64,000 bases of DNA from Thiomonas arsenitoxydans (GTDB lineage Bacteria; Pseudomonadota; Gammaproteobacteria; Burkholderiales; Burkholderiaceae_C), in assembly GCF_000253115.1 (NCBI RefSeq), contig NC_014145.1, positions 1,178,001 through 1,242,000 of the forward strand, given 5' to 3'. Each line of letters begins with the position of its first letter. Within the stretch, counting starts at the first letter, position 1. Made by a program: the position numbers and the translations under genes. Under the pieces are notes generated by a model, which was given only the letters and a program-made list of their open reading frames with translations, made no database searches and was not told the origin of the DNA. Of the stretch, positions 34,062 through 50,022 are shown one piece after another.

Positions 34062-36331
34062 CAGAACTGCGCCTCCAGGCTGAGGTAGTAGCTGCGTGGC
34101 AGGTTGTATTTGATGAGCGGGTCTTTGGCGCTGCCCGGAAAGCCGGTGCTGTATTTAGTGATGTAGCGCTTGTCGAACAGATTGTTCACATTGAAGCCCA
34201 CGCTGACTTTTTGCAGACCCAAGCCGCGCACCGTGTCGCCGCCCTTCCAGGTGTAGCGCAGCGAGGCATCGGCGATGGTGTGCGCCGGAATGGGGGACTT
34301 GAAGTCCGTCCAGTAAGCCTCGCTGGTGTGGCGCACGCCCAGCTTGGCTCGCCACGGGCCGACGGTGTAGATGCCGCCCAGCGCCATCGTGGAGTGTGGC
34401 GAATACGGCATGGGCACCTTGGCCGAGGTGAACTGCGCGTTGAGCAGCCCCAGGTTGGCGTAGGCCGACCAGTTTTTGTCGATCTGGAAATTGTTCTGCC
34501 AGGCGATGCCCTCATTCACAGCCTTGCCCACGTTGGCCAGAATGGAGATGGACTGGGTGGCGCCGGGCGGCGTGTAACTGAAACTCTGGATGTAGTCGTC
34601 GAAGTTGACGCGGAATACATCCACGCCGCCGCTCCACATGCCGAAGTCGTAGATCACGCCAGCGTCGTAGGTCGTGGCCTTTTGCGGGGCGAGATCAGGG
34701 TTGTAGGTGCCGGTGTAGTACTGGTTGTATTGCGGCGGATTGCTGTTGCGGGTGTAGTTGGCGTAAACGTTGATGCCCTGTGCCAGCTTGTAGTTCACGC
34801 CGAGAGAGGGCATGGTGGTCGAGAAGCTGGAGCTGTACTGCCCCGCAGTACCCTTGGATTTGGCGACTGCCGCATAGTCGATGAAGTCGCGTTCGGTTTT
34901 GAGGTATTTCAGTCCGGCCTGCAGGGTCAGGCGGTCGGTGGGCTTGAAGGTAAAGTTGAAATAGGGCTCGTAGAGTTTGGTTGAGACCGGTTCCTTGTAC
35001 ACCGAACCCAGATACTGACCCGTGGTGCTGCTGATGAACTGCTGGTCGTGCGTGGTGTCGTTCTTGTTGAACCAGATGCCAGCTTCCAGCCCCAGGTTGT
35101 CGGTAATGGGCGTGGTCAGCTTGAAAATATTGCCCCAGCGCCGGGTGTCGTTGATGCCATGCGACATGAACAGGCCGCCCACTGGCGCCTTGACCGAGCC
35201 ATACACCCCATTGGGCTGCAGCAGGTTGTAGGTGCTGTTGGTGTAAGCGCCGCCGCTGTAGCCGTTGCCCCGGTAGTAATAAAGCTGGTTGGAGACGGTG
35301 ACCTTGCCGAAGGTGGCTTCGTATTTGGCATAGGTCAGCCAGTTTTGATATTGGTTGTAGTTGTAGGTGGGCGAGAGACCGTTTTGTTTGCCATTGACGA
35401 CCGGGTCGCCGCGATAGACGTTGCAGGTGTCGCCATATTTGGCGTAGTCGGCCTTGGTGCAACCGCCGTAGTAATTGAACTTCTGGTTGTTCTGGGTGTA
35501 GAACAGGGTCAGCGCGCCGGTGCCGAGTTGGGTCACGCTCTTGAACAAGTATTGCTTCTGGTCGCTGGGCGTGTTGTCGAAATAGCCGTCGCTGTGGGTT
35601 TTGTTCGCGTAGAACCACAGCGAAGTCGGGGCGCCGCTATTGGCGCCGAGCAGCCCGGAGTTGACCAGGGTGCCGAAGTTGTATTTGCCGAAGGAGCCGT
35701 ATCCGCCGAGCAGGGAAACAGAAGGTTTGGCGCTCGGGTTCAGCGAATAGGTCTCGACCGAGCCGCCAAATGCGGCCAGACCCGGAATGGCGGCTGAAGC
35801 GGCTCCCGGAAAATATCGCGTCCCCGCGATCAGGCGTGTGGGGATGAACTCGTTGGTGTAGAAGGCGTAGCTGCCGTTGTCGTTCAGCGGTATGCCGTCG
35901 AGTGTCCAGTTGATGAGATTCTGTCCGAAGCCGTTGATGTACACCGTGTCGCCGTTCATGCTGTCGCCATCGCTGCTGACGACCACATTGGGCATGTTTT
36001 CCAGCCCGCGGGTGAACGAGTCGGTGGGGTCGAGCGACTGAAACTGGCCGGCAGTGATTTCGGTTTGGGCCTGTGTGGCCTCAGGGTTGAACTGCTGGAT
36101 GGTGTTGAGCTGGCTTTCGGGGATGACGGTTACCGTGCCCGATGGCGCTTTGAGGAAAAAGCTGTCCCCCGGCTTTGTGGCGCTGGTCTGTCCTTGCGCC
36201 TGCACTTCGCCCAGACTGGTTTGCGCGTGGGCTTGCGCTGCGGTGCCGAATGCCAGCGCGAGGGCGACGGTGAGCTTGAGGTTTGATCGCTGGAGTGGGT
36301 TTTGTGATGGGCAATGCACAGCGGGTTTCAT
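34061..36331 (-). CDS. TonB-dependent outer-membrane receptor (phosphate-linked)
   Basis: A 756-residue receptor. A signal peptide (LKLTVALALAFGTAAQAHA, cleavage ~residue 36) is followed by a plug domain (VPES-like FVIPESQLNTIQQF, then NVVVSSDGDSMNGDTVYINGFGQNLINWTLDGIPLND, partly quoted). A ~550-residue beta-barrel ends in YYLSLEAQF with a terminal phenylalanine. The plug lacks an extra N-terminal signalling domain. The leader is pyrimidine-rich without a clear Shine-Dalgarno. Neighbours are two phosphatases, and a Pho-box-like site lies 68 bp upstream, so the cargo is plausibly an organophosphate or phosphate complex. The cargo itself is inference. Confidence 0.88.
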   Translation of the reverse strand: MKPAVHCPSQNPLQRSNLKLTVALALAFGTAAQAHAQTSLGEVQAQGQTSATKPGDSFFLKAPSGTVTVIPESQLNTIQQFNPEATQAQTEITAGQFQSLDPTDSFTRGLENMPNVVVSSDGDSMNGDTVYINGFGQNLINWTLDGIPLNDNGSYAFYTNEFIPTRLIAGTRYFPGAASAAIPGLAAFGGSVETYSLNPSAKPSVSLLGGYGSFGKYNFGTLVNSGLLGANSGAPTSLWFYANKTHSDGYFDNTPSDQKQYLFKSVTQLGTGALTLFYTQNNQKFNYYGGCTKADYAKYGDTCNVYRGDPVVNGKQNGLSPTYNYNQYQNWLTYAKYEATFGKVTVSNQLYYYRGNGYSGGAYTNSTYNLLQPNGVYGSVKAPVGGLFMSHGINDTRRWGNIFKLTTPITDNLGLEAGIWFNKNDTTHDQQFISSTTGQYLGSVYKEPVSTKLYEPYFNFTFKPTDRLTLQAGLKYLKTERDFIDYAAVAKSKGTAGQYSSSFSTTMPSLGVNYKLAQGINVYANYTRNSNPPQYNQYYTGTYNPDLAPQKATTYDAGVIYDFGMWSGGVDVFRVNFDDYIQSFSYTPPGATQSISILANVGKAVNEGIAWQNNFQIDKNWSAYANLGLLNAQFTSAKVPMPYSPHSTMALGGIYTVGPWRAKLGVRHTSEAYWTDFKSPIPAHTIADASLRYTWKGGDTVRGLGLQKVSVGFNVNNLFDKRYITKYSTGFPGSAKDPLIKYNLPRSYYLSLEAQF

Positions 36332-36511: not shown

Positions 36512-39214
36512 TCAGTCGTCGTCTTGACCGGCAATCAGGCTGGAGGCAGGTCGCCGCTGTGCTTTGGCCAGGGCTTGCACATGCGCAAGCATGGCGGCGT
36601 AGGCCGCTGGGCCTCGGCTGGCCAGCCATTCCTGCCGCATCTGCTCGGGGCCGGAAACCTTGAGCAGTGCGGTCGGGGTATAGCGGTGAGCAGGGGGCGG
36701 TGCGCTTTGGGCCACCTGGCCGACACCCGGCACGACGACTTCAGGCAGTGCGCGAAAAGGGGCGTCGACTGGGCAGACGCCAGGGTTGCGCTGCATCGGC
36801 ACTAGAGACGGCAGCACGGGGTAGGGCGCGGCATCGGGCGTGCTGCGCCAGATGCCGGAAAGCACATGGGCGTTGGCGTCCCATTGCGACATCGGCGGAA
36901 TGTCGGCCACGGTTTCGATGGTGCGCAGCAGATCGACCTGCGAGAGATGCTGCGTGACCCGCACGCCAGGCTTGACCCACGGCCCGGCGGCGACGGCGAA
37001 GGTGCGGTGGGCGTCGATGTGATCGGCGCCCGACTGCGCGTCGTCCTCGGTCAGCAGCACCAGGGTGTGCTTCCAACCCGGCAGTTTGGACAGGCTGTGG
37101 ATGACCTGCGCGGTGGCTTCATCGTTGTTGGCCACATAGCTGTCCGGGCTGGGCAGGCAGGGGTGGCGGCCGGCGGTGTGGTCGTCGGGCAGCCAGATAT
37201 AGAGCACGCGCGGCAGGGGGTGATGGCGCAGCCAGTTGTCCACGACTTTGGCGCGGTCGGTGTCGAGGATGAGGCGATCCCAGGCCGGGTAGTCCATGGC
37301 CAGATGGGCGCGCAGTGCAGGCGAGATGTCGCCGATTTTGTTGCGCGAGGCAAACTCCCCAAAGTCTTCGAAACTCACCTTGTGCGCGAGCAGATCGTTG
37401 AACAGAAACAGCCGCGCCGGGTAGGTGATCCAGGGGTTGCTCCAATGCCCGAGCGCGGAGAGATTTTTGTAGATCGCATAAGGGTTGCGCGCATCGCTGG
37501 CTCCGGGGGCGAGCGACTGCGTCCAACCCGAATTGGCGATGTAGCCGCGGTCGGAGTAGTACAACGGCCATGTGCGCTGAAGGAAGTCGGAGTCTGATCC
37601 GGCGGTCGTCCATTGATGACCTTGCGAGGTCACTTCGCCATCGGCGTAGAAATTGACGAACAGCGCACCCAGGTCGGCCATGCGGTAGAGGTTGGGCAGT
37701 TCGCGCGGGCCGTAGAGGTTGAGCGCGGGGTCGGCCCAATGACCCGCCGCAGCGTATTTGCCGAAGTCTTCATCAAAGGTCTTGTTCTCGCGCAGGATGA
37801 AAACGACATGCTGGATGTGGCCGTGCAACCAGGCTGCCGCTTTGGCGTTGTCGGACGCCAGTTGCCGACGCTGCGCGGCGCTGAAGCCGTTGTTCGACAA
37901 GGCAGCTTGCGTCCAGGCCGGGCCGTGTATGGGCAGCTCGCGCAGGTCGATGCGTTGCAGCACGCCCTGCATGAAATTGCCCACCCATTGATGGTGGATA
38001 TTCGGCCCGCCATCCATGCCCTTGGCGCTAGCAACGTATAGGGCGTTGCCCTGTACCGTCACCGCTGTGGGATACCAAGCCGTCGGAATGAGGGCGATGC
38101 GTTTGCCACTGGCGAGGTCGTACACCGCGACATCGTTGTTGCCCGCGTTGGCCACGAACAACTTGCCTTGCGACACCGCCAGTGCGTCCGGGTAAGAGCC
38201 GGGCGGCGCGCCGGGGTAGGGGCTGTCGTCGATCACCCGCACGACTTTGAGGGTCTGTGTGTTCACCGCGACGAGGCGGTCGAGGTTGGCGTCGGCCACC
38301 CAGACGTTCGATGAGTCGGGCTGCGCCGCCAGCGCAGTGGGATGGGCGCCGGCCGCGCCGCTGCGCGGGCCGAGCACCGGGCCTGTGGGCACTGCGCCCA
38401 GCACCTTCCAGGCTCCGCGGTCGATGATGGTGACGCCATTGCCGCCCCAGTTGCTCACTACCAGCCGTTTGCCGCCATCGGCCAGAGTGACGGCGAAGGG
38501 GTAGCTGCCCACGTTGAGATAGTGGGTCACCCCAGTCTGCAGGTCGATGCGCGCCAGACTGTTGGCCAGCATCCCGGTTACATAGGCGTGCCGCCCGTGC
38601 GGGCCGATGACCACGCTGTCCGGATAGAAGTGACGGGTCTGCTGCCAGTCGCCGGCATATTGATAGGGGTATTGATCCCGCGGGAAGGGCTGCCACTGCA
38701 AGCGATAACGGCGAAGCAGATGCAGCGGGCCGTTGCCAGACGAGCCGAGGGCCAGAAGGTCGTCGCTATTGCCGCCCGTGGCGTAGAGCGTGCCGTCAGG
38801 CCCCGCGGCCAGCCCCTGAAACAGGCTTTGGCCCTTGATGACCTGCTCGCCGTCATCGGCTCTGCCACCATTCTGATCGCCCTGCGCCACCGTCGCTCCG
38901 GGTGCTGCATGCTTTTTGTCCTTGGCAAAAAGGGCACCCACACGGCCTTCGGGCTGCAGGGTCTCGGCAGCGAAACGCAGCACGTTTTGTTGTTTGCTCG
39001 CCCCTCCCGTGAGCACGGCCACATGACCGTCGCTGAGGGCGATCTGGGTGGGGAAGTTCGGGGTTTCAACGATTTGTCCTGCCGGGGTGAGCAGGCGGCC
39101 GCTGGGCAGGAGCGCACTTGGCGCTTGAGCCGCGAGGACGCTCTGGGACAGGCTAAGGGCGCCGAACACAAGGAGGGATGGGTAAGGGGGATAAGGGCGA
39201 TAAGGGCGAGTCAT
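36512..39214 (-). CDS. Exported phosphoesterase with N-terminal beta-propeller
   Basis: A 900-residue protein. Signal peptide (LLVFGALSLSQSVLAAQAP), a YVTN-like beta-propeller over ~residues 40-430 (repeats such as HAYVTGMLANSLARIDLQTG, KRLVVSNWGGNGVTIIDRG, LFVANAGNNDVAVYDLASG), then an alkaline-phosphatase-superfamily phosphoesterase domain from ~470. The metal motifs are ILRENKTFDEDFG and TEDDAQSGADHIDAHR. It resembles bifunctional YncE/phospholipase-C-like proteins, which hydrolyse phosphoesters outside the cytoplasm. It is 180 bp upstream of the TonB receptor gene on the same strand. The extreme N-terminus is encoded by a short 9-bp tandem repeat (ATAAGGGCG twice), giving a PYRPYPPYP run. 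Confidence 0.87.
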   Translation of the reverse strand: MTRPYRPYPPYPSLLVFGALSLSQSVLAAQAPSALLPSGRLLTPAGQIVETPNFPTQIALSDGHVAVLTGGASKQQNVLRFAAETLQPEGRVGALFAKDKKHAAPGATVAQGDQNGGRADDGEQVIKGQSLFQGLAAGPDGTLYATGGNSDDLLALGSSGNGPLHLLRRYRLQWQPFPRDQYPYQYAGDWQQTRHFYPDSVVIGPHGRHAYVTGMLANSLARIDLQTGVTHYLNVGSYPFAVTLADGGKRLVVSNWGGNGVTIIDRGAWKVLGAVPTGPVLGPRSGAAGAHPTALAAQPDSSNVWVADANLDRLVAVNTQTLKVVRVIDDSPYPGAPPGSYPDALAVSQGKLFVANAGNNDVAVYDLASGKRIALIPTAWYPTAVTVQGNALYVASAKGMDGGPNIHHQWVGNFMQGVLQRIDLRELPIHGPAWTQAALSNNGFSAAQRRQLASDNAKAAAWLHGHIQHVVFILRENKTFDEDFGKYAAAGHWADPALNLYGPRELPNLYRMADLGALFVNFYADGEVTSQGHQWTTAGSDSDFLQRTWPLYYSDRGYIANSGWTQSLAPGASDARNPYAIYKNLSALGHWSNPWITYPARLFLFNDLLAHKVSFEDFGEFASRNKIGDISPALRAHLAMDYPAWDRLILDTDRAKVVDNWLRHHPLPRVLYIWLPDDHTAGRHPCLPSPDSYVANNDEATAQVIHSLSKLPGWKHTLVLLTEDDAQSGADHIDAHRTFAVAAGPWVKPGVRVTQHLSQVDLLRTIETVADIPPMSQWDANAHVLSGIWRSTPDAAPYPVLPSLVPMQRNPGVCPVDAPFRALPEVVVPGVGQVAQSAPPPAHRYTPTALLKVSGPEQMRQEWLASRGPAAYAAMLAHVQALAKAQRRPASSLIAGQDDD

Positions 39215-39278
39215 CGTGGAGACCTCTGGTCATTGAATTTGGCGTTGAACAAGTAGCTGTTGAACATAGGCAGGAACA

Positions 39279-39296
39279 GCGTCACGGGCATGTCAA
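39279..39296 (-). promoter_or_regulatory. Pho-box-like site before the phosphoesterase gene
   Basis: Minus-strand TTGACATGCCCGTGACGC fits the tandem-heptamer Pho box less well (5/7 and 4/7) but lies 65 bp before the ATG, nearly the same distance as the better site upstream of the receptor gene. Confidence 0.35.
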
Positions 39297-39410
39297 GATC
39301 AAAAAAAGAGGTGACCATTTGTGTCAGACAAGAGGCATCGCCTGCGCGAAATTGCGGTGTTGGAAAAACGGTATAAACTGTTTATTCGATTTTCATTGAA
39401 GGAGGCCGCC

Positions 39411-39896
39411 ATGCCTGTTACCAAATCCAACCCGTCCGCCAAAGTCACTAAATCCGCCGTTGTGCCCGCACGAGCGCCCGCTTCCGCGCCACGCAAAACC
39501 GCCAAGCCCGCCACGCCGCAAAAGACCGCAGTGAAGCGGGCGACCCCTCATGCGGTAGCCAAGGGCGCTGCCAAGGGGGCGACTAAACCCGCCGTCAAGG
39601 CGCCCGCACGCAAGACGGCAGTCGCCAAGGCAGAGAAATCAACGTCCGCGCCTGCCGCCTTGAGCAAACCGCCCAAGATCAAACTGGTGCGCGACAGTTT
39701 CACCATTCCTCGCGCTGAGTACGAGATGCTCGATGCGATCAAGGATCGTCTGGTCAAGCTGACGCGTCCTGCGAAAAAAAGCGAAGTGCTGCGCGCCGGC
39801 ATCGCCGTGCTGGCCGCGCTCAACGATGCCGCCTTGCTGGCCGCGCTGGAAGCCGTGCCCGCCATCAAGACCGGCAGGCCGAAAAAGGCGAAGTAA
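39411..39896 (+). CDS. H1/AlgP-like Ala-Lys-rich nucleoid protein with C-terminal conserved domain
   Basis: A 161-residue protein. Residues 1-90 are a low-complexity Ala/Lys/Pro/Thr tail with repeated KTA, KPA and KGA units, like eukaryotic H1 tails and AlgP. Residues ~92-155 form a compact domain (KIKLVRDSFTIPRAEYEMLDAIKDRL..., KSEVLRAGIAVLAALND) found in many Burkholderiales and resembling a ribbon-helix-helix or helix-turn-helix unit, ending AIKTGRPKKAK, an AT-hook-like GRP. AAGGAGG precedes the ATG; the longer frame from 39321 has none. It is divergent from the phosphoesterase gene. Confidence 0.75.
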   Translation: MPVTKSNPSAKVTKSAVVPARAPASAPRKTAKPATPQKTAVKRATPHAVAKGAAKGATKPAVKAPARKTAVAKAEKSTSAPAALSKPPKIKLVRDSFTIPRAEYEMLDAIKDRLVKLTRPAKKSEVLRAGIAVLAALNDAALLAALEAVPAIKTGRPKKAK

Positions 39897-39921
39897 GACA
39901 TTGCATCGGGGCTGAGTCCGC

Positions 39922-40083
39922 TCAGACTGCCTGCCAGAACGCCGCAGCGATCAGCGCGGCTACTAGCACCCAGCCGCTGGCTGCAGGCTGCCATTGCGCG
40001 GCGCCCCAGGCCAGCGCCACGGCCACGGCCACCGAGGCCACATTGCGAGCGTCGCCGAAGATGAGTTGCAAGACTTTTTTCAT
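39922..40083 (-). CDS. Small 53-residue membrane protein
   Basis: A short ORF (MKKVLQLIFGDARNVASVAVAVALAWG...WVLVAALIAAAFWQAV) with two hydrophobic helices. The ATG overlaps the stop of the FTR1-like gene by ATGA, so it is translationally coupled and likely real. It resembles small subunits or chaperones of membrane complexes in size only; the function is unknown. Last gene of the long uptake operon. Confidence 0.65.
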   Translation of the reverse strand: MKKVLQLIFGDARNVASVAVAVALAWGAAQWQPAASGWVLVAALIAAAFWQAV

Positions 40084-40823
40084 GCGCGGGCTCCTTGGGG
40101 GGTGAGTTGCGGTACGCGCAGCTTGAATGCAGACAGGCGGCCAGCGACGACATAAACGGCGAACAGCAAGAGCAGTGTGGCATCGCCCAGTGGCCATACC
40201 TTGGCTTCGTCGAGCAGGCCGCCAAGGCTCCAGAAAGTGCCGAAGGCCAGCAGGGCGCAGGCCACGGTGAACTTGAGGGTGTTCTCAGGCACTTTGGTCA
40301 GCGGTGCGCGCAGCACCAGGCCTACTGCGATGACGGCGAGCAAGGCGGCCACCGCGCTGCCCGCCGCCTGTCCGTAGCTGATGGAGCGGCCCAGCGCCAC
40401 CACCAGCAGCCAGACTTCCAGCCCTTCGAGCAGCACGCCCTTGAAGGCCACGGCCCAGGCGACGCGGGCTTCGGCGTGGTCGATTTTGTGGCGGGTTTCG
40501 GCAAATTCCTTGGCTTCGTCGTGCAGCTTGGTGCGCCCGGCGTAGCGGCGGATGGCCTTGACGTACCAGCGCAGACCGAACAGCAGCAGAAACAGGCCGA
40601 TGGCGGCGCGGATGAGGTCGATGTCGGCCTGCACCACATTCAGCGCCGTGCCGGTGACGGCGATGAGCGCGGCCACCACCGCCAATGCGGCGGCGGCTGC
40701 TCCGGCGGCGCGGGCCCAGCCGATGGTCAGCGCCACGGCGAGCACGATGGTGAAGGCTTCCACCCACTCGACGGCGGAGGCCAGGAAAATGGCGGTCATG
40801 CCGCCCCATTGGGTTGCGTTCAT
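40080..40823 (-). CDS. FTR1-like (COG4280-type) integral membrane protein
   Basis: A 247-residue protein with about seven helices. Two E-x-x-E-type motifs, SAVEWVEAFTIVLAV near the N-terminus and GVLLEGLEVWLLVVALG in the middle, recall the REGLE motifs that bind Fe(III) in the iron permease FTR1. COG4280 proteins share this pattern and are uncharacterised. Its position between a complete ABC transporter (its ATG overlaps the ATPase stop) and a coupled 53-residue protein suggests a role in handling the same metal or substrate. The iron connection is inference. Confidence 0.7.
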   Translation of the reverse strand: MNATQWGGMTAIFLASAVEWVEAFTIVLAVALTIGWARAAGAAAAALAVVAALIAVTGTALNVVQADIDLIRAAIGLFLLLFGLRWYVKAIRRYAGRTKLHDEAKEFAETRHKIDHAEARVAWAVAFKGVLLEGLEVWLLVVALGRSISYGQAAGSAVAALLAVIAVGLVLRAPLTKVPENTLKFTVACALLAFGTFWSLGGLLDEAKVWPLGDATLLLLFAVYVVAGRLSAFKLRVPQLTPQGARA

Positions 40824-41923
40824 CAGGTGAGTTCCTCTGTCGTTGTTTTGCGTGTGGGATTCATGGTGGGGTAGAACAGGGTTTGCTCGGCGGCGATGCG
40901 CAAGGAGACGGTGCTCCCCGCAGCAGGCGCAAGGTCATCGGATACAGGCAGGCGCAGGGTCACGCCGTGCAGGTCGATGCGTAGTTCAGTGTGCTCGCCC
41001 ACGGTGAGGTGACTGAGCACCCGGGCTTGCACTGGCCAGAGCAGAGCGTCCTGGTTGACGCGGGCATGGGGGAGGTGCAGCGCCGTGGTGCGCAAATACA
41101 GGCAGAGCGGCCCATCGGCCAGCGCCTTGCATTGCGGCGGGGCACACACCTCACCCCAAGGCGCATGCAGGCGCCCGGCACGCAGCTGCGCCGGCCACGG
41201 TCCATGCGCCCCGGTGAAGTGGGCGACGAACTCGGTTGACGGCTGGCGCAACAGGGCGCGCGGGCTGCTGAGCTGCAGCAGGCGGCCTTGCGCCATCACC
41301 CCCACGCGGTCGGCCAAGGCCAGAGCCTCACGATGGTCGTGGGTGATGTAGAGCGCGCTGATGCCGTGCTCGCGCACCACGCTGCCGATGAGATCGCGCA
41401 GTTCTTCGCGCAGCCCGGCGTCGAGGTTGGACAGTGGCTCGTCGCACAACAGCAGCCGAGGCCGCACCGCGAGCGCGCGGGCCAGCGCCACGCGCTGCTG
41501 CTGCCCGCCGGAGAGGGCGTGCGGATGGCGGTCGGCCAGATCGGCCAGGCCCACATCGGCCAGCATGGCGCGGGCTTGCTCGCGCGACTTGTCGCGGCCC
41601 AGGCGGTGCAGCGGCAGGGCGACGTTGTCGAGCGCGCTCAAGTGCGGCCACAGCGCATAGTCCTGGAACACCATGCCGAGCTGGCGCTGCTCTGGCGGCA
41701 GAAAGGGGCCGCCCGCGGCGTCGATCACGGTGGCGCCCAGGCGCATGCTGCCGCCATCGAGCCGCTCAAGTCCGGCCACCAGGCGCAGCAGCGTGGTTTT
41801 ACCCGAGCCGGAGGGGCCGAGCAGACAGAGGATTTCCCCCTCCTGCAGTTGCAGGCTGAGGTCGTGCAGCGCGGTGGTGCCGCCGAAGCGCTTGCGCGCC
41901 GAATCGATGTGGAGCAGGGTCAT
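40823..41923 (-). CDS. ABC transporter ATP-binding protein
   Basis: A 366-residue ABC ATPase of the Fe(III)/polyamine/phosphonate (CUT1-like) group. It has Walker A GPSGSGKTTLLRL (~residue 35), signature LSGGQQQRVALARAL (~residue 137), Walker B LLLCDEPLSNLD, the switch His in YITHDHREAL, and a C-terminal TOBE-type regulatory domain (~residues 245-360). It energises the permease encoded 3 bp upstream. It is the intermediate gene of the run from the TonB receptor. Confidence 0.92.
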   Translation of the reverse strand: MTLLHIDSARKRFGGTTALHDLSLQLQEGEILCLLGPSGSGKTTLLRLVAGLERLDGGSMRLGATVIDAAGGPFLPPEQRQLGMVFQDYALWPHLSALDNVALPLHRLGRDKSREQARAMLADVGLADLADRHPHALSGGQQQRVALARALAVRPRLLLCDEPLSNLDAGLREELRDLIGSVVREHGISALYITHDHREALALADRVGVMAQGRLLQLSSPRALLRQPSTEFVAHFTGAHGPWPAQLRAGRLHAPWGEVCAPPQCKALADGPLCLYLRTTALHLPHARVNQDALLWPVQARVLSHLTVGEHTELRIDLHGVTLRLPVSDDLAPAAGSTVSLRIAAEQTLFYPTMNPTRKTTTEELT

Positions 41924-41926
41924 GGT

Positions 41927-43648
41927 TCAGTGGGCGCCGAGTTGGCGCCAAGCCACGGGGGTGAAGCGCTGATAGACCCAGCGCGCCAGCAGCGCGAAGG
42001 CCAGCAGTACGGCCATGCCCAGCACCTGCAGCCGCGCCTGCTGATGCAACTGGAAACCTCCGGCGTATTGCAGCAGCGCCACGGCCAGCGGCGGATGCCC
42101 AGCGGGGTAGAGCAACTCAGAGGCCGGCAGCTCGAACGCGATCGACAGCACCGCCAGCAGCCAGCCATAGAACAGCGCGCCGGACAACAGCGGTAAATGA
42201 ATATGGCGCAGGGTTTGCCAGCGCGACAGTCCATGCACCCGCGCCGCGTCGGCCAGTGAGCGGTGCAACTGCGCCACCGGCCCCATGAGCACGCGACTGG
42301 TGGCGGGCACGGCCAGCGCCACATAGGCCATGCCCAGCAGCAGGCTGCCGCCATACAGCGGCGCGTAAGGCTGGTTGTAGGCCTGCAGATAGGCGGCGGC
42401 CAGCACGATGAGCGGTAACGCCATCATCGCCAGCAAGGCCACGTCGAGCAGGCGGCCCACGCGACCGGGGCGGGCGATCAGCCAGGCAATCGGCAGGGCG
42501 ATGCCCACCGTCAGGCTGGCGGCCACCAGCGCCAGTTGCAGCGAATAGCCGATGGCGGCAAGCAGCGGCGGCAATGACGCGGCAATCTGCATCCAGCCCG
42601 CCTTGGGCCAGGCCACGCCCAGTGCGGCGAAGCTGGGTAGCGCCAGGGCGAACAGGCCCAGCGCGATCAGCAAAACGCCGTGCAGCAACTGATGGCTGGC
42701 CCGCAGCCGCACCCGCGCGGCAGGGCGGTGCTTGGCGCCCAGGGTCTGGTGCTGGCTGGCGCGTTGCCCCACGCGGTGCTGCAGGATGAGCGCGGGAACC
42801 ACCAGCCCGAGCAGCAGCCAGGACGTGGCCGCAGCCAGCGGAAAGTTCAGCGGCATGCCGTTGACCGCCTGATAGATGGCATACGTGCCCATGGTGAAAC
42901 CGCTGCTCGCGCCCAATGTGGCCACCACCGCGAAGTTGCGCAGCGATTCGGCGTAGGCGATGGCAAACCCGGCTGCCAGTGCGGGCAGCAGGGCGTTGAG
43001 CCCGAGCCGCAGCCGCCACAGCCTGGACAGGCCATGCACGCGCGCCGCCTCCTGCTGTGCCGCGCTGGTGTGGCGCAGGCTGCCTTGCGCCACCAGAAAC
43101 ACATAGGGCACGACCTTGAGCGCCAGAGTGATGACGATGCCCACCGGCCCGAGCAGCCATTGCGCCGCATGCAGCGCCGCAGGCCATGCGGCCAGCGGGC
43201 CGATGGGCGCGGCCAGCAGCATCCAGCCCGAGGCGAGGAAGAAGTCGGGGAAGATCAGCAGCAGCCACACCCCGGCCTCGATCCAGCCGCGCCCGTGCAG
43301 ATCGGTGCGTTCGCGCAGCCAGGCCAGCCACAGACCGAGCGGCAGCGCCGCAGCGCCCACGGTGAGCGCTACCCACAGCGAGTTGAACAGGGCGTGGAGT
43401 TCATAGCCCTGCACGGCGTGCCGCAAGGGCTCAAGCGTCGGTCGCAGGTCGCCTTGCAGTAAGTGCGGCATCGCCGCCGAAAGCAGAAAGCCCAGCAGCG
43501 GATAGGCCCAGAGTGCGATGAATACGGCGGCGGCGAGCAGCAGACCGAGGCGCGATACCCAATGTCGCAGACCAGCCGCCCTGCGGCCAGCCGCTGTTGA
43601 GGCGTCGGCGCCGGGCAGCCAGTTCATGGCTTGAAGCAGGGCGATCAT
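41927..43648 (-). CDS. Two-domain ABC transporter permease (FbpB/SfuB-type)
   Basis: A 573-residue inner-membrane permease made of two fused six-helix BPD-transp-1 domains. Each has an EAA-like loop: EAARVHGLSRLWRLRLGLNALLP (~residue 215) and DAARVHGLSRWQTLRHIHLPLL (~residue 475). This fused form is typical of Fe(III), 2-aminoethylphosphonate and thiamine ABC importers. Encoded between the binding protein and ATPase genes with short gaps. Confidence 0.92.
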   Translation of the reverse strand: MIALLQAMNWLPGADASTAAGRRAAGLRHWVSRLGLLLAAAVFIALWAYPLLGFLLSAAMPHLLQGDLRPTLEPLRHAVQGYELHALFNSLWVALTVGAAALPLGLWLAWLRERTDLHGRGWIEAGVWLLLIFPDFFLASGWMLLAAPIGPLAAWPAALHAAQWLLGPVGIVITLALKVVPYVFLVAQGSLRHTSAAQQEAARVHGLSRLWRLRLGLNALLPALAAGFAIAYAESLRNFAVVATLGASSGFTMGTYAIYQAVNGMPLNFPLAAATSWLLLGLVVPALILQHRVGQRASQHQTLGAKHRPAARVRLRASHQLLHGVLLIALGLFALALPSFAALGVAWPKAGWMQIAASLPPLLAAIGYSLQLALVAASLTVGIALPIAWLIARPGRVGRLLDVALLAMMALPLIVLAAAYLQAYNQPYAPLYGGSLLLGMAYVALAVPATSRVLMGPVAQLHRSLADAARVHGLSRWQTLRHIHLPLLSGALFYGWLLAVLSIAFELPASELLYPAGHPPLAVALLQYAGGFQLHQQARLQVLGMAVLLAFALLARWVYQRFTPVAWRQLGAH

Positions 43649-43667
43649 GGTGCGTCGCTGTTCAATC

Positions 43668-44699
43668 TCAGCGGGCGATGTGCGCGGTGAACCAGTCGAT
43701 CACCTGCGGCTCTTTCGGCCCCCAGACCGCGGGGTCGATCACCAGCGGCTGCACCGTGCCCAGTTGCTTGAGGCTGGGCAGCGGGGCGACGCCCTCGACC
43801 AGGGGCAGGTAGTTGGAATCTGCATTGGCATCACCCTGCTGCATCGCGGCCTGTCCCGCTGGCGACAACACCCATTGCACAAAGCGCTGCGCCTGCTGTT
43901 CGAGCGGGCCGGAAACCTGTTTGCCGATGGCCAGATCGGACGGCAGCACCGTGGCCGGAGTCGGGGTGGCGATGCGCAGACCGGGCATTTCGTGCAGGAA
44001 GCCGATGGCCGCCGAACTCTGCACCACGGCGGCGTCGATTTGGCCGTATTGCAGCGCGCGCAGGGTCACGCTATTGGTGGGGAAGACCTTGAGGCCGTTG
44101 GCCTTGAGGCGCGCGAAAAACGCCTTTCCAGGCGCATCGCCCAGGTGTTGCAGCAGACCAGCTACCAGTGGATAAGTCGGGCCGGAGATGGCCGGGTTGT
44201 CCATGCCCACCTTGCCGCGCAGCGCGGGCTTGGCCAGATCGTTCCAGGTCTTGGGCCAGTTGGCCGCAGCGATGGCCTTGGGGTTGTAGAGGATGACGCC
44301 GGCAAAGGTCACACCTACCGGCTGCCAGCAGTGGCTGAGCGGCACGAGTTGCTGGCCCAGCGCGGTGTAGCGCACCCCGGGCGTCCAGCCGCACTGCAGC
44401 AGGCCCTGCGCGGCAAAGGTCTGCATGGCCTGGTTGCCGTCGAGCCAGAGCACGTCCCACTGCGGGTTGCGGCTTTCGGCCTGCACCCGCGCCAGCAGCG
44501 GGCCGGTGCTCAGGTGAATGAGGTTGACCGGAATGCCGGTGGCCTGGGTGAAGGCCTGCGCCAAATGCTGGTCATAGCCCATGGCGCCATAGACGGTCAG
44601 GGTGGCGGCGTGTGCCGTGCCAAGGGCGGCGGCGCAAAGTGCGGTGCTGCCCAGCAGGCGCGCCAGCTTGTTGACGAAAGAACGGGTGGAGACTGACAT
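43668..44699 (-). CDS. Periplasmic substrate-binding protein, Fe(III)/phosphonate-type cluster
   Basis: A 343-residue type-2 periplasmic binding protein. Signal peptide ends AHA-A (~residue 31); the mature part begins TLTVYGAMGYDQHLAQAFTQATGIPVNL, typical of FbpA-like and phosphonate-binding proteins. The C-terminal NYLPLVEGVAPLP is also shared with that group. But where FbpA has the Fe-binding Tyr-Tyr pair (…LINNYYW…), this protein has AAVVQSSAAIGFL, so iron coordination as in FbpA is not possible. The gene overlaps the tonB stop by 1 bp. Confidence 0.88.
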   Translation of the reverse strand: MSVSTRSFVNKLARLLGSTALCAAALGTAHAATLTVYGAMGYDQHLAQAFTQATGIPVNLIHLSTGPLLARVQAESRNPQWDVLWLDGNQAMQTFAAQGLLQCGWTPGVRYTALGQQLVPLSHCWQPVGVTFAGVILYNPKAIAAANWPKTWNDLAKPALRGKVGMDNPAISGPTYPLVAGLLQHLGDAPGKAFFARLKANGLKVFPTNSVTLRALQYGQIDAAVVQSSAAIGFLHEMPGLRIATPTPATVLPSDLAIGKQVSGPLEQQAQRFVQWVLSPAGQAAMQQGDANADSNYLPLVEGVAPLPSLKQLGTVQPLVIDPAVWGPKEPQVIDWFTAHIAR

Positions 44700-45454
44700 C
44701 AGGAATCGCTCAGGTGAAACCGCACCCAGATGGTGAAGGCCATGTTCTTGCCTTGCAGTTCCTTGGGTGTTGCGGGGTAGGGGGCGTTGCGCACGGCTTC
44801 CAGCGCGGCATGGTCGAGCAGGTCGGCGCCGCTGGAGGTGACGACGCGCAGATGGCTGACGGCGCCGTCGCGGAAGTCGAAGCCCACCAGCGTCTTGCCG
44901 GTGAGCTGCATCATGCGGGCGGCCTGCGGATAGCGCACCGCGGCCTGGATGGCGCTGCGCAACTCGGCCTCGAAAGTGGCCTTGATCGAGGCCACATCTG
45001 GCGCTGGGGGAGCAGGGGGCTGCGGCGGTGCGGGCGCGGCCACCGGCATGGCGGGCCGGGTGTCGGGCGCGGGTGCGGGCGGCGCCTGCACCTTGGGTGT
45101 GGGTTCAGGTGCGGGATGGGGTGCAGGCTGCGGCGGCGGTGGCTGCACCGGCTTGGGTTGCACCTTGTGGACGATAGGCTTGGGTAGCGGCTTGACCACC
45201 GGCTTGGGCACGGGTTTGGGCTCCGGCGGTTTCGGCGTGGGCGGGGTCACGGTCTTGGGGGCGGGCTTGGGCGCTTCGAGCACGATCTGCACGGGCGGCG
45301 GCGGGGGTGGTGGCGCAGGGTGGCTGCTCCACCACACGATGGCGGCGATCAGTGCCGCTTCGAGCAACAGCGCCGCCAGCGCAGCCAGGGGCCAGCGTTT
45401 GCCGTCCTGGTCTTCGCGCCACGGGGCGGGGGGGGGATGCAGCACGGCGCTCAT
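44699..45454 (-). CDS. tonB: TonB energy-transducing protein
   Basis: A 251-residue protein. An inner-membrane anchor lies near the N-terminus (LAALAALLLEAALIAAIVWW, ~residues 22-42). It has a long proline-rich periplasmic spacer with KP/EP repeats (~residues 48-150) and a C-terminal TonB domain (SAIQAAVRYPQAARMMQLTGKTLVGFDF...AVRNAPYPATPKELQGK, partly quoted). It transmits energy from ExbB/D to outer-membrane receptors. It overlaps exbD at its 5' end, and the binding protein gene follows. Confidence 0.92.
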   Translation of the reverse strand: MSAVLHPPPAPWREDQDGKRWPLAALAALLLEAALIAAIVWWSSHPAPPPPPPPVQIVLEAPKPAPKTVTPPTPKPPEPKPVPKPVVKPLPKPIVHKVQPKPVQPPPPQPAPHPAPEPTPKVQAPPAPAPDTRPAMPVAAPAPPQPPAPPAPDVASIKATFEAELRSAIQAAVRYPQAARMMQLTGKTLVGFDFRDGAVSHLRVVTSSGADLLDHAALEAVRNAPYPATPKELQGKNMAFTIWVRFHLSDS

Positions 45455-45858
45455 TGCCCGCCGTCCCTGGCTTGCCGGGCCGCCAGCCCGATTTTTGTGA
45501 CCCCGGCAACGCGGCAGGCGTCCATGACCGTCATGAGTTGCTGCAGAGAAACGTCTTCTTCCCCGGCGATGGTGACCTGCATCGCATCGGTGTCCGGCTT
45601 GCTCTTGAGCAGGGCGGTGAGTTGCTGCGGCGACAACACCTTGCTGTCGTAGTGAATGGCGCCGGACTTGTCCACCGCCAGGGTGATCTGCGGCTTGGGC
45701 ATGCTTTGCGCGGTGGAACTGGTGGGCAGGCGCGAGGCGATGCCAGCGTCTGGAATCATGTGCAGCGTGACCATGATGAAGAACACCAGCAGGAAAAACA
45801 TGATGTCGATCATCGGAATGATCTCGATGCGCGCTTTTTTCGCTTCAAAATATTTCAT
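45451..45858 (-). CDS. exbD: Biopolymer transport protein ExbD
   Basis: A 135-residue ExbD. A cytoplasmic N-terminus is followed by the single transmembrane segment with the proton-path aspartate (IIPMIDIMFFLLVFFIMVT, Asp-18), then a periplasmic domain ending DACRVAGVTKIGLAARQ. The frame is open to 45921, but the family begins at MKYFEAKKARIEI. It overlaps the tonB start by ATGA and follows exbB by 91 bp. Confidence 0.93.
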   Translation of the reverse strand: MKYFEAKKARIEIIPMIDIMFFLLVFFIMVTLHMIPDAGIASRLPTSSTAQSMPKPQITLAVDKSGAIHYDSKVLSPQQLTALLKSKPDTDAMQVTIAGEEDVSLQQLMTVMDACRVAGVTKIGLAARQARDGGQ

Positions 45859-45949
45859 GGCGATCAAACAAAAATGCCGCGGCGATTGCGCCGCAGCCCA
45901 AGCGTGCGAACTCCAGCGCACGCGACCTGGAGAAGTTGTGCGAACGGCG

Positions 45950-46666
45950 TCAGGCCATCTTTTGCTGCAGAGTTGCGGCTGGCTGTGCCGCCGGGCGCAC
46001 GGCCTGCCCGTTCTGCGCCACGACCACCGGGCGCACGCCGCCCTCGCGGTAATGCGGGTACATGCGGTTGGACAGCATGAGCTTGATGCGCTCGAGCTGA
46101 TGCATCACCAGACGCACGCGCTGGTTGAGCGCGTTGAAGGCCACCAACCCGAGCACGGCGATGAACAGCCCCGCAGCCGTGGCCAACAGCGCTTCGCCCA
46201 CGCCGCCGGTGACCGCTTGCGTGGCCGCCCCCGGGTTGGACAGCGCCGAGAAGGTGTTGAACATGCCGATGATGGTGCCCAGCAGACCGAGCAGCGGCGC
46301 CAGGGTGACGATGGTGTCGAGCATCCACAGCCCGCGGTCGATGCGCGGGGCCTGATCCATCACCGCTTCTTCCAGCCGGTCGGTGAAGTGATCGAGCGGG
46401 TCGGCCAGGTCGTGCTGCAGCGCCACGGCGACCACCTGCGCCGCAGGCGAATCGGCGTCATCGTCCACCTTGGCTTTGAGCTGCTTCACATCCACATGCG
46501 CGTGGCTCTTTAGCTCGCGGATCCAGCCTTTGGCCGAAGCCAGCATGCGCGAAATCGCCCAGAAGCGCTCCACGCTGACGGCCAGCGCGACAAACAACAG
46601 CAAGGCCATGATGTAGAGAATCCCGCCCGAGGTCTGGGCCAGGTGGGTGAGGGTGTCGAGAGACAT
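45950..46666 (-). CDS. exbB: ExbB/TolQ/MotA proton-channel protein
   Basis: A 238-residue protein with three transmembrane helices: one N-terminal (ILYIMALLLFVALAVSVERFW) and a pair around residues 115-180 (TIVTLAPLLGLLGTIIGMFNTFSAL and ALLATAAGLFIAVLGLVAFN), the MotA/TolQ signature. Forms the proton channel with ExbD. Lies 90 bp after the TonB receptor gene. Confidence 0.93.
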   Translation of the reverse strand: MSLDTLTHLAQTSGGILYIMALLLFVALAVSVERFWAISRMLASAKGWIRELKSHAHVDVKQLKAKVDDDADSPAAQVVAVALQHDLADPLDHFTDRLEEAVMDQAPRIDRGLWMLDTIVTLAPLLGLLGTIIGMFNTFSALSNPGAATQAVTGGVGEALLATAAGLFIAVLGLVAFNALNQRVRLVMHQLERIKLMLSNRMYPHYREGGVRPVVVAQNGQAVRPAAQPAATLQQKMA

Positions 46667-46756
46667 GATCTAACTCCAGATGTTCAAGGAACAAGTGTGC
46701 AGTTTGACCGGCCCAGGTGAAGAGCCGATGACGGATTGCGAGCAACCGGATTAACG

Positions 46757-49102
46757 TCAAAAACTTGCACTTAGACTGGCGTAAAGCGTGCGCGGCGCAC
46801 CCGGAAGCCCCAGAATCTGCCCTTGCGAATTGCCGCCTAGCAGGCCACCGCTGGTCACTTCCTCAAACGGGTTGTATTGTTTGTTCAGCACGTTAAGAAT
46901 ATTCACGCTGAAACGTACGTCGTGCACTGCTGCATGGCTGAAGGGTACTTCGCCATCGAGCCCGACATTCAGCAGACCATAGGCAGGGATGGTTTTCTGG
47001 CTTGGGGCTCCGAGATTATTGTCGAACATATGCTGTTTGCCGACATATTGATACCATATGCGAGGTGTTAACAATATTCCAGAGATGTAGTCTTCGTAGG
47101 CAAAGCCGACATTGAAAGTCTTGTTGGGTACGTTTGAGACGGGAAGTCCTGCATAACTCACGCCGCCTGTTGTGTAGTTATTGAAATCGGCGCTCTCAAA
47201 ATTCATGTTGGCAAACGCGTGCAGGTTGTACAGTATGTCGTCCGCTACCGCGATGTTGAAGCCCTTGTAAACCGAATCGCCATTGGCGTCGCCGAGGAAA
47301 TTACCGTTTGCGTCACTCAGCGTGATGTACTGGTTCGTATAGTGCAGGTGGTAATACGACACACTCAGCAAGAAGTTGCGCAGCATGCCATCGTTTTTCA
47401 AATGCATCTTGAACCCGAGGTTGTAGTCCGTGCTCTTTTCCAGGTTGTAAACCGGGGGCGTGGACTGATAAATACCCCCGCCGCCGCCGACCTGTGGCTC
47501 TTTGTACGCCACTGCATAGTTTCCAAACAGCGCCAGCGTCGGTGTGATGCGCCAGTTGGCGGCGATCGACGGTTCGGTCTCATGATGTGTCACGTTCGCC
47601 GCAGGCAATTTGCCTTGGTCGTGCTGCGGATACAGTGCGTAGGCTTGGCTGAAATCGCTCTGCCCAGCAGGGTAGTAATTTGTTTGATAGTTGATAAACC
47701 GGATACCTGGAGTGATGTCGAAGTTCGCAATGGGACTGATCTTATCTTGCATGAACAGCGCTAGATCGGTCTGATCCCAATAATCACTGCGATATTTTGC
47801 GTTTGGCACGCCCTGGCTGCCGTTATAAGGCGGATTTGTATTGTAGAATGCGTTTCTGGAATTGTAATGGCTTTTCAGGAAAAAGCCACCTAGACTCACA
47901 AGATTATGAGGTAATGAAATATCTGCCCAGGCTTTGTCGCCATAAACCTGCGTGCTTGGGTTGTTGTATTCGTAAAGATTCGCAGGATTGCTCAGGCCAT
48001 AATTATTGTAGTGATAATGCAGGCGTTCACCCATTCGATACCATACTAGATTGTGCAGTGACAAGGTCTCGTCCACCTGAATATTGGCCTTGCCATAAAT
48101 GATGCGCGTCTTGTTGGTGTCGTCTTTGAACCAGACGTTGGCAGGGATTGAACTGTAATAGCCGGATGTGGATTGGCTGTACAAGGGTGTGTTCGGAGTG
48201 CCATCCAGTGTGACGCCACTGATCGGCTGCAAAGGGATCGGCACTGGGCGATATCCCTGACCTTCAGCCTGATAAAAGCCCAAGGAAAAATCGCCTTTTT
48301 CGAATGTCTTGCGTGTTTTCAGGAACCAGGCGTAGTTATGGCTATGGTTTTTGAAACCGTCGCTGCTGGTGCGATAACTGTCGGAGGAACCTACTCCTCC
48401 GGCGAGAACTGTGGCCCAGCCGTCGTGCATGCCGCTTTGCAGACTCAACGACAGATTGCGTGCGCCGTAGCTGCCGACACTCAGACCGACCGTGCCGCCA
48501 GCCTTGGCTGTGGGCTGCAGCGGCACGAAAGCAATTTCGCCGCCGATGTTGTTGTACCAACGATCTTTGGCGCTGCCTGGGCCATAGGTGATGCCGATTC
48601 CCTGTAGGAGGCCAAGCTGCGGCACTTCCGGCGATTCCCACAATCCGGTCGATGGATTCGACATGGGGACGCCATCGAAGGTCACGGCAATGCTGCCGTT
48701 GTCGATTTGGCCGCCTGAAAACCCGCCCCAACCCTGTTTGATGCCATTGATACTGATGGAGGTTTTGGTCGATCCCGTCGCTCCATAACCCGTTACGCCA
48801 ACTCCGGGGGCCAGCGAGAGGGCTTGCGCGCTGCCGCCGACGGGGCCTGCTGCTTGTAACTCTCGCTTACTGAGTACTTTGATCGATTGGTCCGACTTGA
48901 ACACATGGGTTTGTTCAAGCTTGGTTGCCTCGTGACTTTTCGCCGGCTGAGGTTTCTGACCTTCCTGCCCGCCCGCCTGCACCGTGCCCAGACTCTCGGG
49001 AGAGGTCTGCGCGTGGGCTGCGGCAAACGGCATGACGAGCAGGGCGGCCAGGACGGACTGGGTGAGTCGCGATGGCTTGAAGGTGGGTCGATGGCGAGAC
49101 AT
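46757..49102 (-). CDS. TonB-dependent outer-membrane receptor (operon head)
   Basis: A 781-residue receptor. Signal peptide MSRHRPTFKPSRLTQSVLAA...AHA (cleaved ~32), plug domain with IKVLSKRELQAAGPVGGSAQALSLAPGVGVTGYG (partly quoted) and a ~600-residue beta-barrel ending YASLSASF. AAGGGAGC precedes the chosen ATG; the frame is open to 49258 without similarity. The gene is visibly AT-richer than its flanks, consistent with a separate history. It is the first of nine same-strand genes running through exbB-exbD-tonB to the ABC importer. The barrel resembles putative siderophore/metal receptors, and cargo is unknown. An inverted repeat AAGAT-N8-ATCTT (49217-49234) lies upstream; no Fur box is seen. 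Confidence 0.88.
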   Translation of the reverse strand: MSRHRPTFKPSRLTQSVLAALLVMPFAAAHAQTSPESLGTVQAGGQEGQKPQPAKSHEATKLEQTHVFKSDQSIKVLSKRELQAAGPVGGSAQALSLAPGVGVTGYGATGSTKTSISINGIKQGWGGFSGGQIDNGSIAVTFDGVPMSNPSTGLWESPEVPQLGLLQGIGITYGPGSAKDRWYNNIGGEIAFVPLQPTAKAGGTVGLSVGSYGARNLSLSLQSGMHDGWATVLAGGVGSSDSYRTSSDGFKNHSHNYAWFLKTRKTFEKGDFSLGFYQAEGQGYRPVPIPLQPISGVTLDGTPNTPLYSQSTSGYYSSIPANVWFKDDTNKTRIIYGKANIQVDETLSLHNLVWYRMGERLHYHYNNYGLSNPANLYEYNNPSTQVYGDKAWADISLPHNLVSLGGFFLKSHYNSRNAFYNTNPPYNGSQGVPNAKYRSDYWDQTDLALFMQDKISPIANFDITPGIRFINYQTNYYPAGQSDFSQAYALYPQHDQGKLPAANVTHHETEPSIAANWRITPTLALFGNYAVAYKEPQVGGGGGIYQSTPPVYNLEKSTDYNLGFKMHLKNDGMLRNFLLSVSYYHLHYTNQYITLSDANGNFLGDANGDSVYKGFNIAVADDILYNLHAFANMNFESADFNNYTTGGVSYAGLPVSNVPNKTFNVGFAYEDYISGILLTPRIWYQYVGKQHMFDNNLGAPSQKTIPAYGLLNVGLDGEVPFSHAAVHDVRFSVNILNVLNKQYNPFEEVTSGGLLGGNSQGQILGLPGAPRTLYASLSASF

Positions 49103-49254
49103 GACTGATTGCTCCCTTGGGCGGTAGGCGGGTGGGTTGACGAAAGCTGTCATTCCATTCCTGCGACATGTCTGCGGGGTTGCAAGAACCTGTCTGAATC
49201 CTGTCCAGCCGTGCCAAAGATGTAAACAAATCTTGACAGTGCGAATGCTTCGCT

Positions 49255-49965
49255 TCACTGCATCGACTTTTCCGTGGCCCAGCGATACCCCGCGCCATGC
49301 ACGGTTTGCACACGCTGATGCAGATCATGTGGACGAAGGTGCCGCCGCAGGCGAGCCACCGCGGTGTGCACGGTGTCGGCGTGCGCGCGTGCGGGAATGT
49401 CCATGGCCAATCGCAGCTCTTGCGGGCTCAGGATGTCGCCCGGACGTGCGCCCAGAGCCCACAACAGCAGAAACTGCTGCGAGGGCAGACTGAGGCAATG
49501 ATCCTGAATGCGGAGCGTCCGGGTTTGTCCGTCGAGCTCCAGAAGGGGTTCCAGCTGGACGCGGTCTCCAGTCTGCGGTGCGAGGCGTTCACGCAGGCGA
49601 GCGAGCTGGGCGCGTATGAGCTGCGGCGGGCTGTCGATCGGCAGCAGGGCATCGGCGCCCGCGTTTAGCGCAGCCATGGCGCCGGGTGAGGCGCAGTCTG
49701 GCAAAAAGGCGATGACTCGGGACGTTTGGCCTCCGAGAGGATGTCGCAGGCGCATCAGCCAGTTGGTCAGTTCATGCACGTCCTCGCCGCTGACAGCCAG
49801 TACGGCCCAGGCATCACCGACTTTCAGCCGCCGTAGGGCCTCATCGGCATCGACAGGCTGGCTGTTCCTGTCCTGGCAGGGTGTGGGGGCTGAGGCGAAT
49901 TGAAGCGATAGAACAGAATGTTTGATCGGCACGATCTGGGCAGGTGGTCCGCTGATGAGAGCCAA
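49255..49965 (-). CDS. OmpR-type winged-helix regulator with degenerate receiver domain
   Basis: A ~236-residue protein. The C-terminal ~100 residues are a typical OmpR/PhoB winged helix (LSLPSQQFLLLWALGARPGDILSPQELRLAM...HTAVARLRRHL...VQTVHGAGYRW). The N-terminal ~115 residues fold like a receiver, but at the expected phospho-acceptor site the sequence is AVLAVSGEDVHEL, and the conserved Lys-Pro near the end is LPIDSPP: both key residues are missing. There is no ATG; the start is TTG 49965 or GTG 49932. It precedes the TonB receptor gene on the same strand by 152 bp and probably controls the uptake operon. Confidence 0.82.
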   Translation of the reverse strand: MALISGPPAQIVPIKHSVLSLQFASAPTPCQDRNSQPVDADEALRRLKVGDAWAVLAVSGEDVHELTNWLMRLRHPLGGQTSRVIAFLPDCASPGAMAALNAGADALLPIDSPPQLIRAQLARLRERLAPQTGDRVQLEPLLELDGQTRTLRIQDHCLSLPSQQFLLLWALGARPGDILSPQELRLAMDIPARAHADTVHTAVARLRRHLRPHDLHQRVQTVHGAGYRWATEKSMQ

Positions 49966-50022
49966 GTGTGCGTAACCGTTTTGACAAAAGCGTGACAGGT
50001 CGGCCCACTACCATGCGCAGCA

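Follow-up and report, generated by a model that had tools for sequence, protein, structure and literature searches.

Clusters that join TonB-dependent uptake genes to PhoB-like regulators were predicted in Acidithiobacilli in 2008 as phosphate-linked and were read as Fe(III) uptake systems (PMC2631029). The operon described here consists of ten minus-strand genes in a single run at positions 39922-49965 of a 64,000-nucleotide stretch of Thiomonas arsenitoxydans contig NC_014145.1 (the window), in a genome of 3.79 Mb and two contigs. It resembles the clusters of the acidophilic Acidithiobacilli and Leptospirilla in bringing together a TonB receptor, ExbB-ExbD-TonB, a PhoB-like regulator of the OmpR family and phosphatases, whereas the available part of that paper lists no block of solute-binding protein (SBP), permease, ATPase and OFeT carrier with them and says that the Acidithiobacilli have no Ftr1-like permease. 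Thiomonas is unmentioned in the section on these clusters, of which the FecA3 cluster may be the same operon. The PUMA3/Vre regulon of Pseudomonas aeruginosa is alike in placing exbB2D2-tonB4 under PhoB with mapped pho boxes, and unlike in that an extracytoplasmic function (ECF) sigma factor is also used and that the accessible main text does not contain the term ATP-binding cassette (ABC) transporter (PMC4971064). PhoB-controlled TonB receptors of Caulobacter (PMC11208175) and the Pus systems of Flavobacterium (PMC8115612) likewise provide TonB-dependent uptake that is induced by phosphate depletion and works alongside phosphatases, whereas the accessible portions of these papers do not describe one run with its own TonB-ExbBD, such an ABC importer and OFeT_1. 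Finally, the AfuA, P5PA and FbpA importers share the binding-protein fold and the general ABC class with this operon, which differs in having no tyrosine pair at the aligned iron site and in its linkage to a TonB layer and OFeT_1. Searches of open-licence literature brought up no publication that describes this operon in Thiomonas.

Translations and Pfam analysis confirmed the minus-strand run and the gene order given in a first-pass annotation made from the sequence alone, that is, a TonB-dependent receptor, ExbB, ExbD, TonB, SBP, fused permease, ATPase, membrane carrier and a 53-aa membrane protein behind a regulator (REG). Every named gene of the run except that of the 53-aa protein, which has no Pfam match, has Pfam support, the receptor plug and barrel, ExbB, ExbD and the TonB C-terminus all scoring above the Pfam gathering scores. 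We compared the loci of the best 80 of 230 OFeT relatives detected in GTDB genomes, in which the named genes were placed by tblastn (simple open reading frame (ORF) calling mixed in antisense frames at these GC-rich loci). The SBP-permease-ATPase-OFeT block was complete in 48 of the 80 loci, belonging to beta-, gamma- and alphaproteobacteria and Acidithiobacillus, and 26 of these 48 also carried ExbB/ExbD upstream. The shared gene order is far beyond chance, and a conserved uptake system that spans the envelope and includes a second membrane carrier, as the annotation had proposed, is established; the order which was expected to recur in relatives if the system were a real unit does recur. The accompanying statement that separate encoding of these layers is the norm was not supported: according to the available part of PMC2631029, most bacteria have their siderophore receptor genes in clusters with ABC and TonB genes. 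Among the remaining complete loci, ten had TonB or a receptor and no ExbB/ExbD in reach, six had a short upstream flank and six, including L030 and L069, were scored by the script as having no TonB layer, although a receptor-like ORF lies upstream in L069. Outside the complete set, permease, ATPase and OFeT were cut by a contig end in three further loci, SBP and OFeT stood alone in three, the flank was too short in eight, and OFeT occurred without ABC genes in 18. Within the 60 nearest genomes, the OFeT protein was present in 7 of the 13 that belong to the genus (its own included) and in 1 of 47 others, and its distribution is therefore patchy.

Because of its promoters, its neighbours and the altered iron site of its SBP, we lean towards the reading that the operon is a dedicated importer of a phosphorus-containing solute, induced by phosphate shortage; phosphate control, the substrate class and the role of OFeT_1 are what we infer from sequence. 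In relatives, the promoter evidence, and for some of them the neighbouring genes as well, favours phosphorus over free iron, which narrows a substrate that the first-pass annotation had called not evident, and a phosphate ester, a nucleotide or a metal-phosphate complex are candidate solutes. Driven by the TonB-ExbB-ExbD of the same operon, the receptor would carry the solute across the outer membrane, the SBP would pass it to the fused permease and ATPase, and OFeT_1 with its coupled small protein might move a metal ion that arrives with the solute or needs balance. REG, being of PhoB type, or PhoB itself would act on two operators made of 11-bp repeats, and secreted phosphoesterases, in some relatives RNase T2, may make or complement the solute outside the cell. 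More speculative, and in our estimate unlikely, is the full form of this scheme, in which one operon would provide the whole route from outer membrane to cytoplasm for metal complexes of phosphorylated compounds. It would combine a TonB receptor and its motor, an ABC importer of phosphate esters that is akin to the ferric-binding class yet has lost the tyrosines of the iron site, and the metal carrier handling the released cation, under a PhoB-like regulator that has no phospho-switch.

The description of REG as OmpR-like is correct for its winged-helix DNA-binding domain, which matched PF00486, but REG does not look like an ordinary response regulator: its receiver-like half gave no Pfam receiver match, and no invariant or nearly invariant Asp that could serve as acceptor was found in a 15-row ortholog alignment. 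Its best NCBIfam model was PhoB, at 40.3 bits compared with a cut-off of 296.2. Upstream of REG the window carries CTGTCACGCTTTTGTCA, one of four matches to STGTCA-N6-TGTCA in the genome, the backwards control giving one. The shorter pattern GTCA-N7-GTCA was found on the coding strand before REG in 12 of 17 loci of relatives, as against 2 of 246 ORF-start windows of these loci. Across the 80 loci, 41 of 7774 windows had it. A binomial figure overstates this contrast, since the motif was picked after viewing the promoters and the loci are related. A second 11-bp-spaced repeat, in reverse orientation before the receptor, was present in the window, in 15 of 17 REG loci and in 56 of 3648 control windows, which include the target stretches, this pattern likewise having been picked after the sequences had been viewed. 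Using an Escherichia coli Pho consensus, 10 of 17 REG promoters (that of the window included in the set) matched at p<=0.05 and 2 of 17 matched the reversed consensus, while at the same threshold Fur boxes (0/17) and Zur boxes (1/17) were at chance level. Receptor-first promoters matched the Pho consensus in 3 of 5 and 3 of 3 cases (reversed, 0 and 2), as did 4 of 29 lone-OFeT promoters (reversed, 0). In the Acidithiobacillus loci L058 and L105, four consecutive TGTCA-like units with 11-bp spacing and at most one mismatch each precede exbB; runs of five or more such units were absent across the 80 loci. A GTCA-N7-GTCA repeat was also seen by eye in the pstS upstream region of the same Thiomonas genome.

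In binding proteins of the FbpA type, a pair of tyrosines ligates Fe(III). This pair was absent from the aligned position in all 36 SBP rows, of which 35 have Ser-Ala and one has Ala-Ala, and P5PA has Ser and Ala at the same position. The predicted SBP model, with a predicted local distance difference test (pLDDT) score of 94.4, has the binding-protein fold of FbpABC-type ferric importers. Its nearest structures, the glucose-6-phosphate proteins AfuA and VcA0625, the iron protein HitA and the pyridoxal phosphate protein P5PA, lie within one Z unit of each other, and the fold alone therefore does not decide on the substrate; the top Foldseek match was STM0429, a putative aminoethylphosphonate-binding protein. 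Aminoethylphosphonate-transporter models of NCBIfam ranked first for the SBP and the ATPase and level with ModB for the permease, all of them under their cut-offs (PhnS, 72.1/310; PhnU2, 56.7/593.25; PhnT2, 275.2/457.7 bits). Phosphonate as the substrate was weakened by the finding of carbon-phosphorus lyase (PhnJ) in 1 of 19 genomes and of PhnW over its cut-off in 0 of 19, weaker PhnW matches being present in 17 of the 19 and in all 14 controls; thus, phosphate esters or metal-phosphate complexes fit better.

Downstream of the operon in the window lies a PF04185 phosphoesterase gene next to that of a second receptor, a pairing kept in L012, L015 and L016; PF04185 neighbours were also found in L058 and L063, and RNase T2 neighbours in L011, L058 and L105. 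RNase T2 and a PF04185 phosphoesterase carrying a twin-arginine translocation (TAT) signal come after the operon in Acidithiobacillus L058, and in L063, a gammaproteobacterial metagenome-assembled genome, the PF04185 gene lies downstream of the operon. On the upstream side of the Acidithiobacillus operon (L106) there are a receptor, a phosphoesterase that shares 55% identity with that of the window, a major facilitator superfamily (MFS) carrier preceded by a Pho-like box, and a divergent metallophosphatase and glycosyltransferase pair; L105, grouped in the same genus as L058, has the same pair, the boxes and RNase T2. This pair appears to resemble PlcP and its glycosyltransferase, lipid-remodelling enzymes of phosphorus deficiency according to the available part of PMC4796936, and no curated models were reached by it. 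Upstream of the window phosphoesterase, only a reverse GTCA-N7-GTCA was detected, and the best match to the Pho consensus was 12/18.

Several observations weigh against the phosphorus reading. The REG promoter of the window itself agrees with the E. coli Pho consensus at 12 of 18 positions, which is not significant (p=0.13), and the consensus was matched in 5 of 16 SBP-first operons (reversed, 3/16) and in 2 of 7 ExbB-first operons (reversed, 1). A PF04185 or RNase T2 neighbour occurs in only 6 of the 80 loci and in few lineages (by tblastn, many contigs being short, though numerous loci plainly have none), and PF04185 was present in all 22 genomes searched, so that some of the adjacency could be chance. 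Other points would suit the usual reading of such clusters, namely a ferric-chelate operon of the xenosiderophore or citrate type, in which a receptor with TonB would serve an ABC importer of the Fbp/Afu kind together with an iron permease. The SBP is near ferric-binding proteins in fold and profile, the sequence-profile ranking placing ferric-binding HitA first; a tyrosine stands 2-3 residues past the aligned iron site in 5 of 36 SBP rows, with Tyr-Tyr in three gammaproteobacterial rows (L047, L063 and L067), which may therefore have an iron site, and not in the window; the receptor of one relative (L046) scores as siderophore type, the TonB-siderophor model being the top one for a Mangrovitalea receptor at a score under the model's cut-off; and the OFeT_1 family is named iron/lead permease. 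TonB and ABC genes of A. ferrooxidans are also annotated as iron uptake in the available part of PMC2621215. However, the replacement of the aligned iron ligands in every SBP row, the lack of Fur boxes in the REG promoters, the Pho-like operators and the phosphorus-scavenging neighbours all speak against a ferric chelate, and we regard this explanation as doubtful.

Joint uptake of iron and phosphorus would reconcile the promoters and neighbours of phosphorus type with the carrier and receptor of iron type: the solute would be phosphate or an organophosphate in complex with ferric iron, for example ferric phytate or a nucleotide, the ABC importer receiving the phosphorus ligand and OFeT_1 taking or clearing the metal. 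Although uptake of phosphate-chelated Fe(III) was proposed for the Acidithiobacillus clusters (PMC2631029), a metal in the solute is conjectural here, and OFeT, which occurs without ABC genes and on plasmids near metal-resistance genes, may be a loosely attached module; we consider joint uptake quite improbable. Least of all do we expect a different metal or an oxyanion (molybdate, lead, manganese), with phosphate-like operators that merely reflect a PhoB-family regulator, since the best Pfam match of the SBP, PF13531, a solute-binding family that includes ModA, and the weak GDT1 similarity of 9 of 36 OFeT rows are opposed by phosphoesterase, RNase T2 and PlcP-like neighbours.

The membrane carrier, which had been called FTR1-like, proved to be of the OFeT_1 family instead. 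It matched PF16955 at 30.2 bits (gathering score, 26.9), and 34 of 36 relatives matched this family at E<=0.1. The FTR1 profile PF03239 had no match in the whole genome, the window protein included, which speaks against FTR1 membership; among the relatives, one of 36 matched it, at E 0.0042. Its sequence gave no match in the PDB and its fold no useful match. The conserved E-x-x-E motifs suggest cation handling. OFeT and the small protein travel as a coupled pair: in 20 of 22 rows (16 of 18 without four duplicates; relatives at E<=1e-8), the small gene begins 4 bp inside the end of OFeT, and the three plasmids matched out of 72,556 records (L108, L109 and L110) each carry an OFeT relative overlapped by a small downstream gene. 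The chromate-resistance gene ChrB lies near the OFeT relative on two of these three plasmids. A PAP2-family phosphatase stands directly before the OFeT relative in L108, and a metal P-type ATPase and a cation diffusion facilitator (CDF) carrier lie near it in L109. COG4280 was not mentioned in the open-licence literature searched.

The receptor of the window is 62-64% identical to the Acidithiobacillus receptors. Its match to the receptors of L012, L014 and L015 covers roughly one third of the protein at 30-33% identity, while the remaining genes at these loci are 73-96% identical to those of the window. The receptor gene has apparently been swapped inside an otherwise orthologous operon, suggesting that the outer parts are exchanged. 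The window receptor type is closer to that of L058 and L105 than to that of several Thiomonas-like loci. Searches for solved-structure relatives of the receptor as a clue to its ligand gave none at the thresholds used.

Some loci depart from this layout. L030 is permuted, with the regulator-receptor-ExbB-ExbD-TonB half downstream of the ABC-OFeT half, and L017-L021 (five loci) keep the receptor, TonB and the ABC-OFeT block, ExbB/ExbD not being found within the fetched stretch. In the Acidiphilium loci L073, L074 and L078, the SBP directly precedes OFeT, and permease and ATPase are missing, in surroundings resembling L066; the L066 permease has no relative in the L073 and L074 genomes and one elsewhere in that of L078. 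L080, L081, L083 and L094 have OFeT without ABC genes; by the look of the sequence, the stretches of L080, L081 and L094 carry pump genes of the resistance-nodulation-division (RND) type, and in L081 a heavy-metal-type sensor kinase lies beside OFeT.

All junctions from ExbD to the small protein overlap or are shorter than 20 bp (overlaps of 4 bp for ExbD/TonB, 1 bp for TonB/SBP, 1 bp for ATPase/OFeT and 4 bp, ATGA, for OFeT/small protein; gaps of 19 bp for SBP/permease and 3 bp for permease/ATPase), and receptor and ExbB are 90 bp apart. The GTG at 49258 is an unlikely start of the receptor, for which the ATG at 49102, followed by a signal-peptide-like MSRHRPTFK...AHA and preceded by a stretch like a ribosome-binding site, is probably the start; this leaves 152 bp between REG and the receptor, their overlap being ruled out as a start-codon artefact. 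Likewise, ExbD probably starts at the ATG at 45858, and thus a 91-bp gap follows ExbB. Between exbB and exbD, a terminator-like hairpin with a T-rich tail at 45876-45897 could be an attenuator or chance, terminator-like sites in the region numbering 12 compared with 9.2 expected in shuffles. The operon very likely ends near 39922, because a convergent plus-strand lysine- and alanine-rich reading frame at 39411-39890 lies beyond the small protein; the C-terminal part of its product is perhaps ribbon-helix-helix-like. A search of 39000-53000 for riboswitches and other Rfam elements gave three matches, none near its gathering score.

Table 1. Genes of the operon, operator-like repeats and adjoining genes, in window coordinates.
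Feature	Position	Strand	Basis or remark
Pho-box-like direct repeat CTGTCA-N5-TTGTCA, 11-bp spacing, upstream of REG	49982..49998	-	
REG, PhoB-type winged-helix regulator with degenerate receiver-like N-terminal half	49255..49965	-	PF00486, 43.5 bits; listed TTG start unsure
Second 11-bp-spaced repeat, reverse orientation, between REG and receptor	49191..49205	+	
TonB-dependent receptor	46757..49102	-	PF00593, PF07715; ORF listed to 49258
ExbB	45950..46666	-	PF01618
ExbD	45451..45858	-	PF02472; ORF listed to 45921
TonB	44699..45454	-	PF03544
Periplasmic SBP, AfuA/FbpA/P5PA fold	43668..44699	-	Pfam, NCBIfam, predicted model, alignments
Fused ABC permease, two BPD_transp_1 stretches	41927..43648	-	Pfam
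ABC ATPase	40823..41923	-	Pfam; best NCBIfam PhnT2, under its cut-off
OFeT_1 (COG4280-type) membrane carrier, two E-x-x-E motifs	40080..40823	-	PF16955, alignments
53-aa membrane protein, ATGA-coupled to OFeT	39922..40083	-	Translation; overlap in relatives
Beta-propeller/PF04185 phosphoesterase, probably a separate transcript	36512..39214	-	55% identity to protein beside same operon in Acidithiobacillus
Second TonB-dependent receptor, adjoining the phosphoesterase	34061..36331	-	Retained beside it in L012, L015 and L016

The TonB and ABC clusters of acidophiles have so far been annotated as iron uptake, and A. ferrooxidans is said, in the available part of PMC2621215, to live amid abundant iron. 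If the operon serves phosphorus, the puzzle of the many TonB systems in iron-rich acid waters could be put to the test, and researchers would have a dedicated TonB-to-ABC route for phosphorus compounds to study. In addition, the operon places the OFeT_1/COG4280 protein and the small protein coupled to it in a genomic setting.

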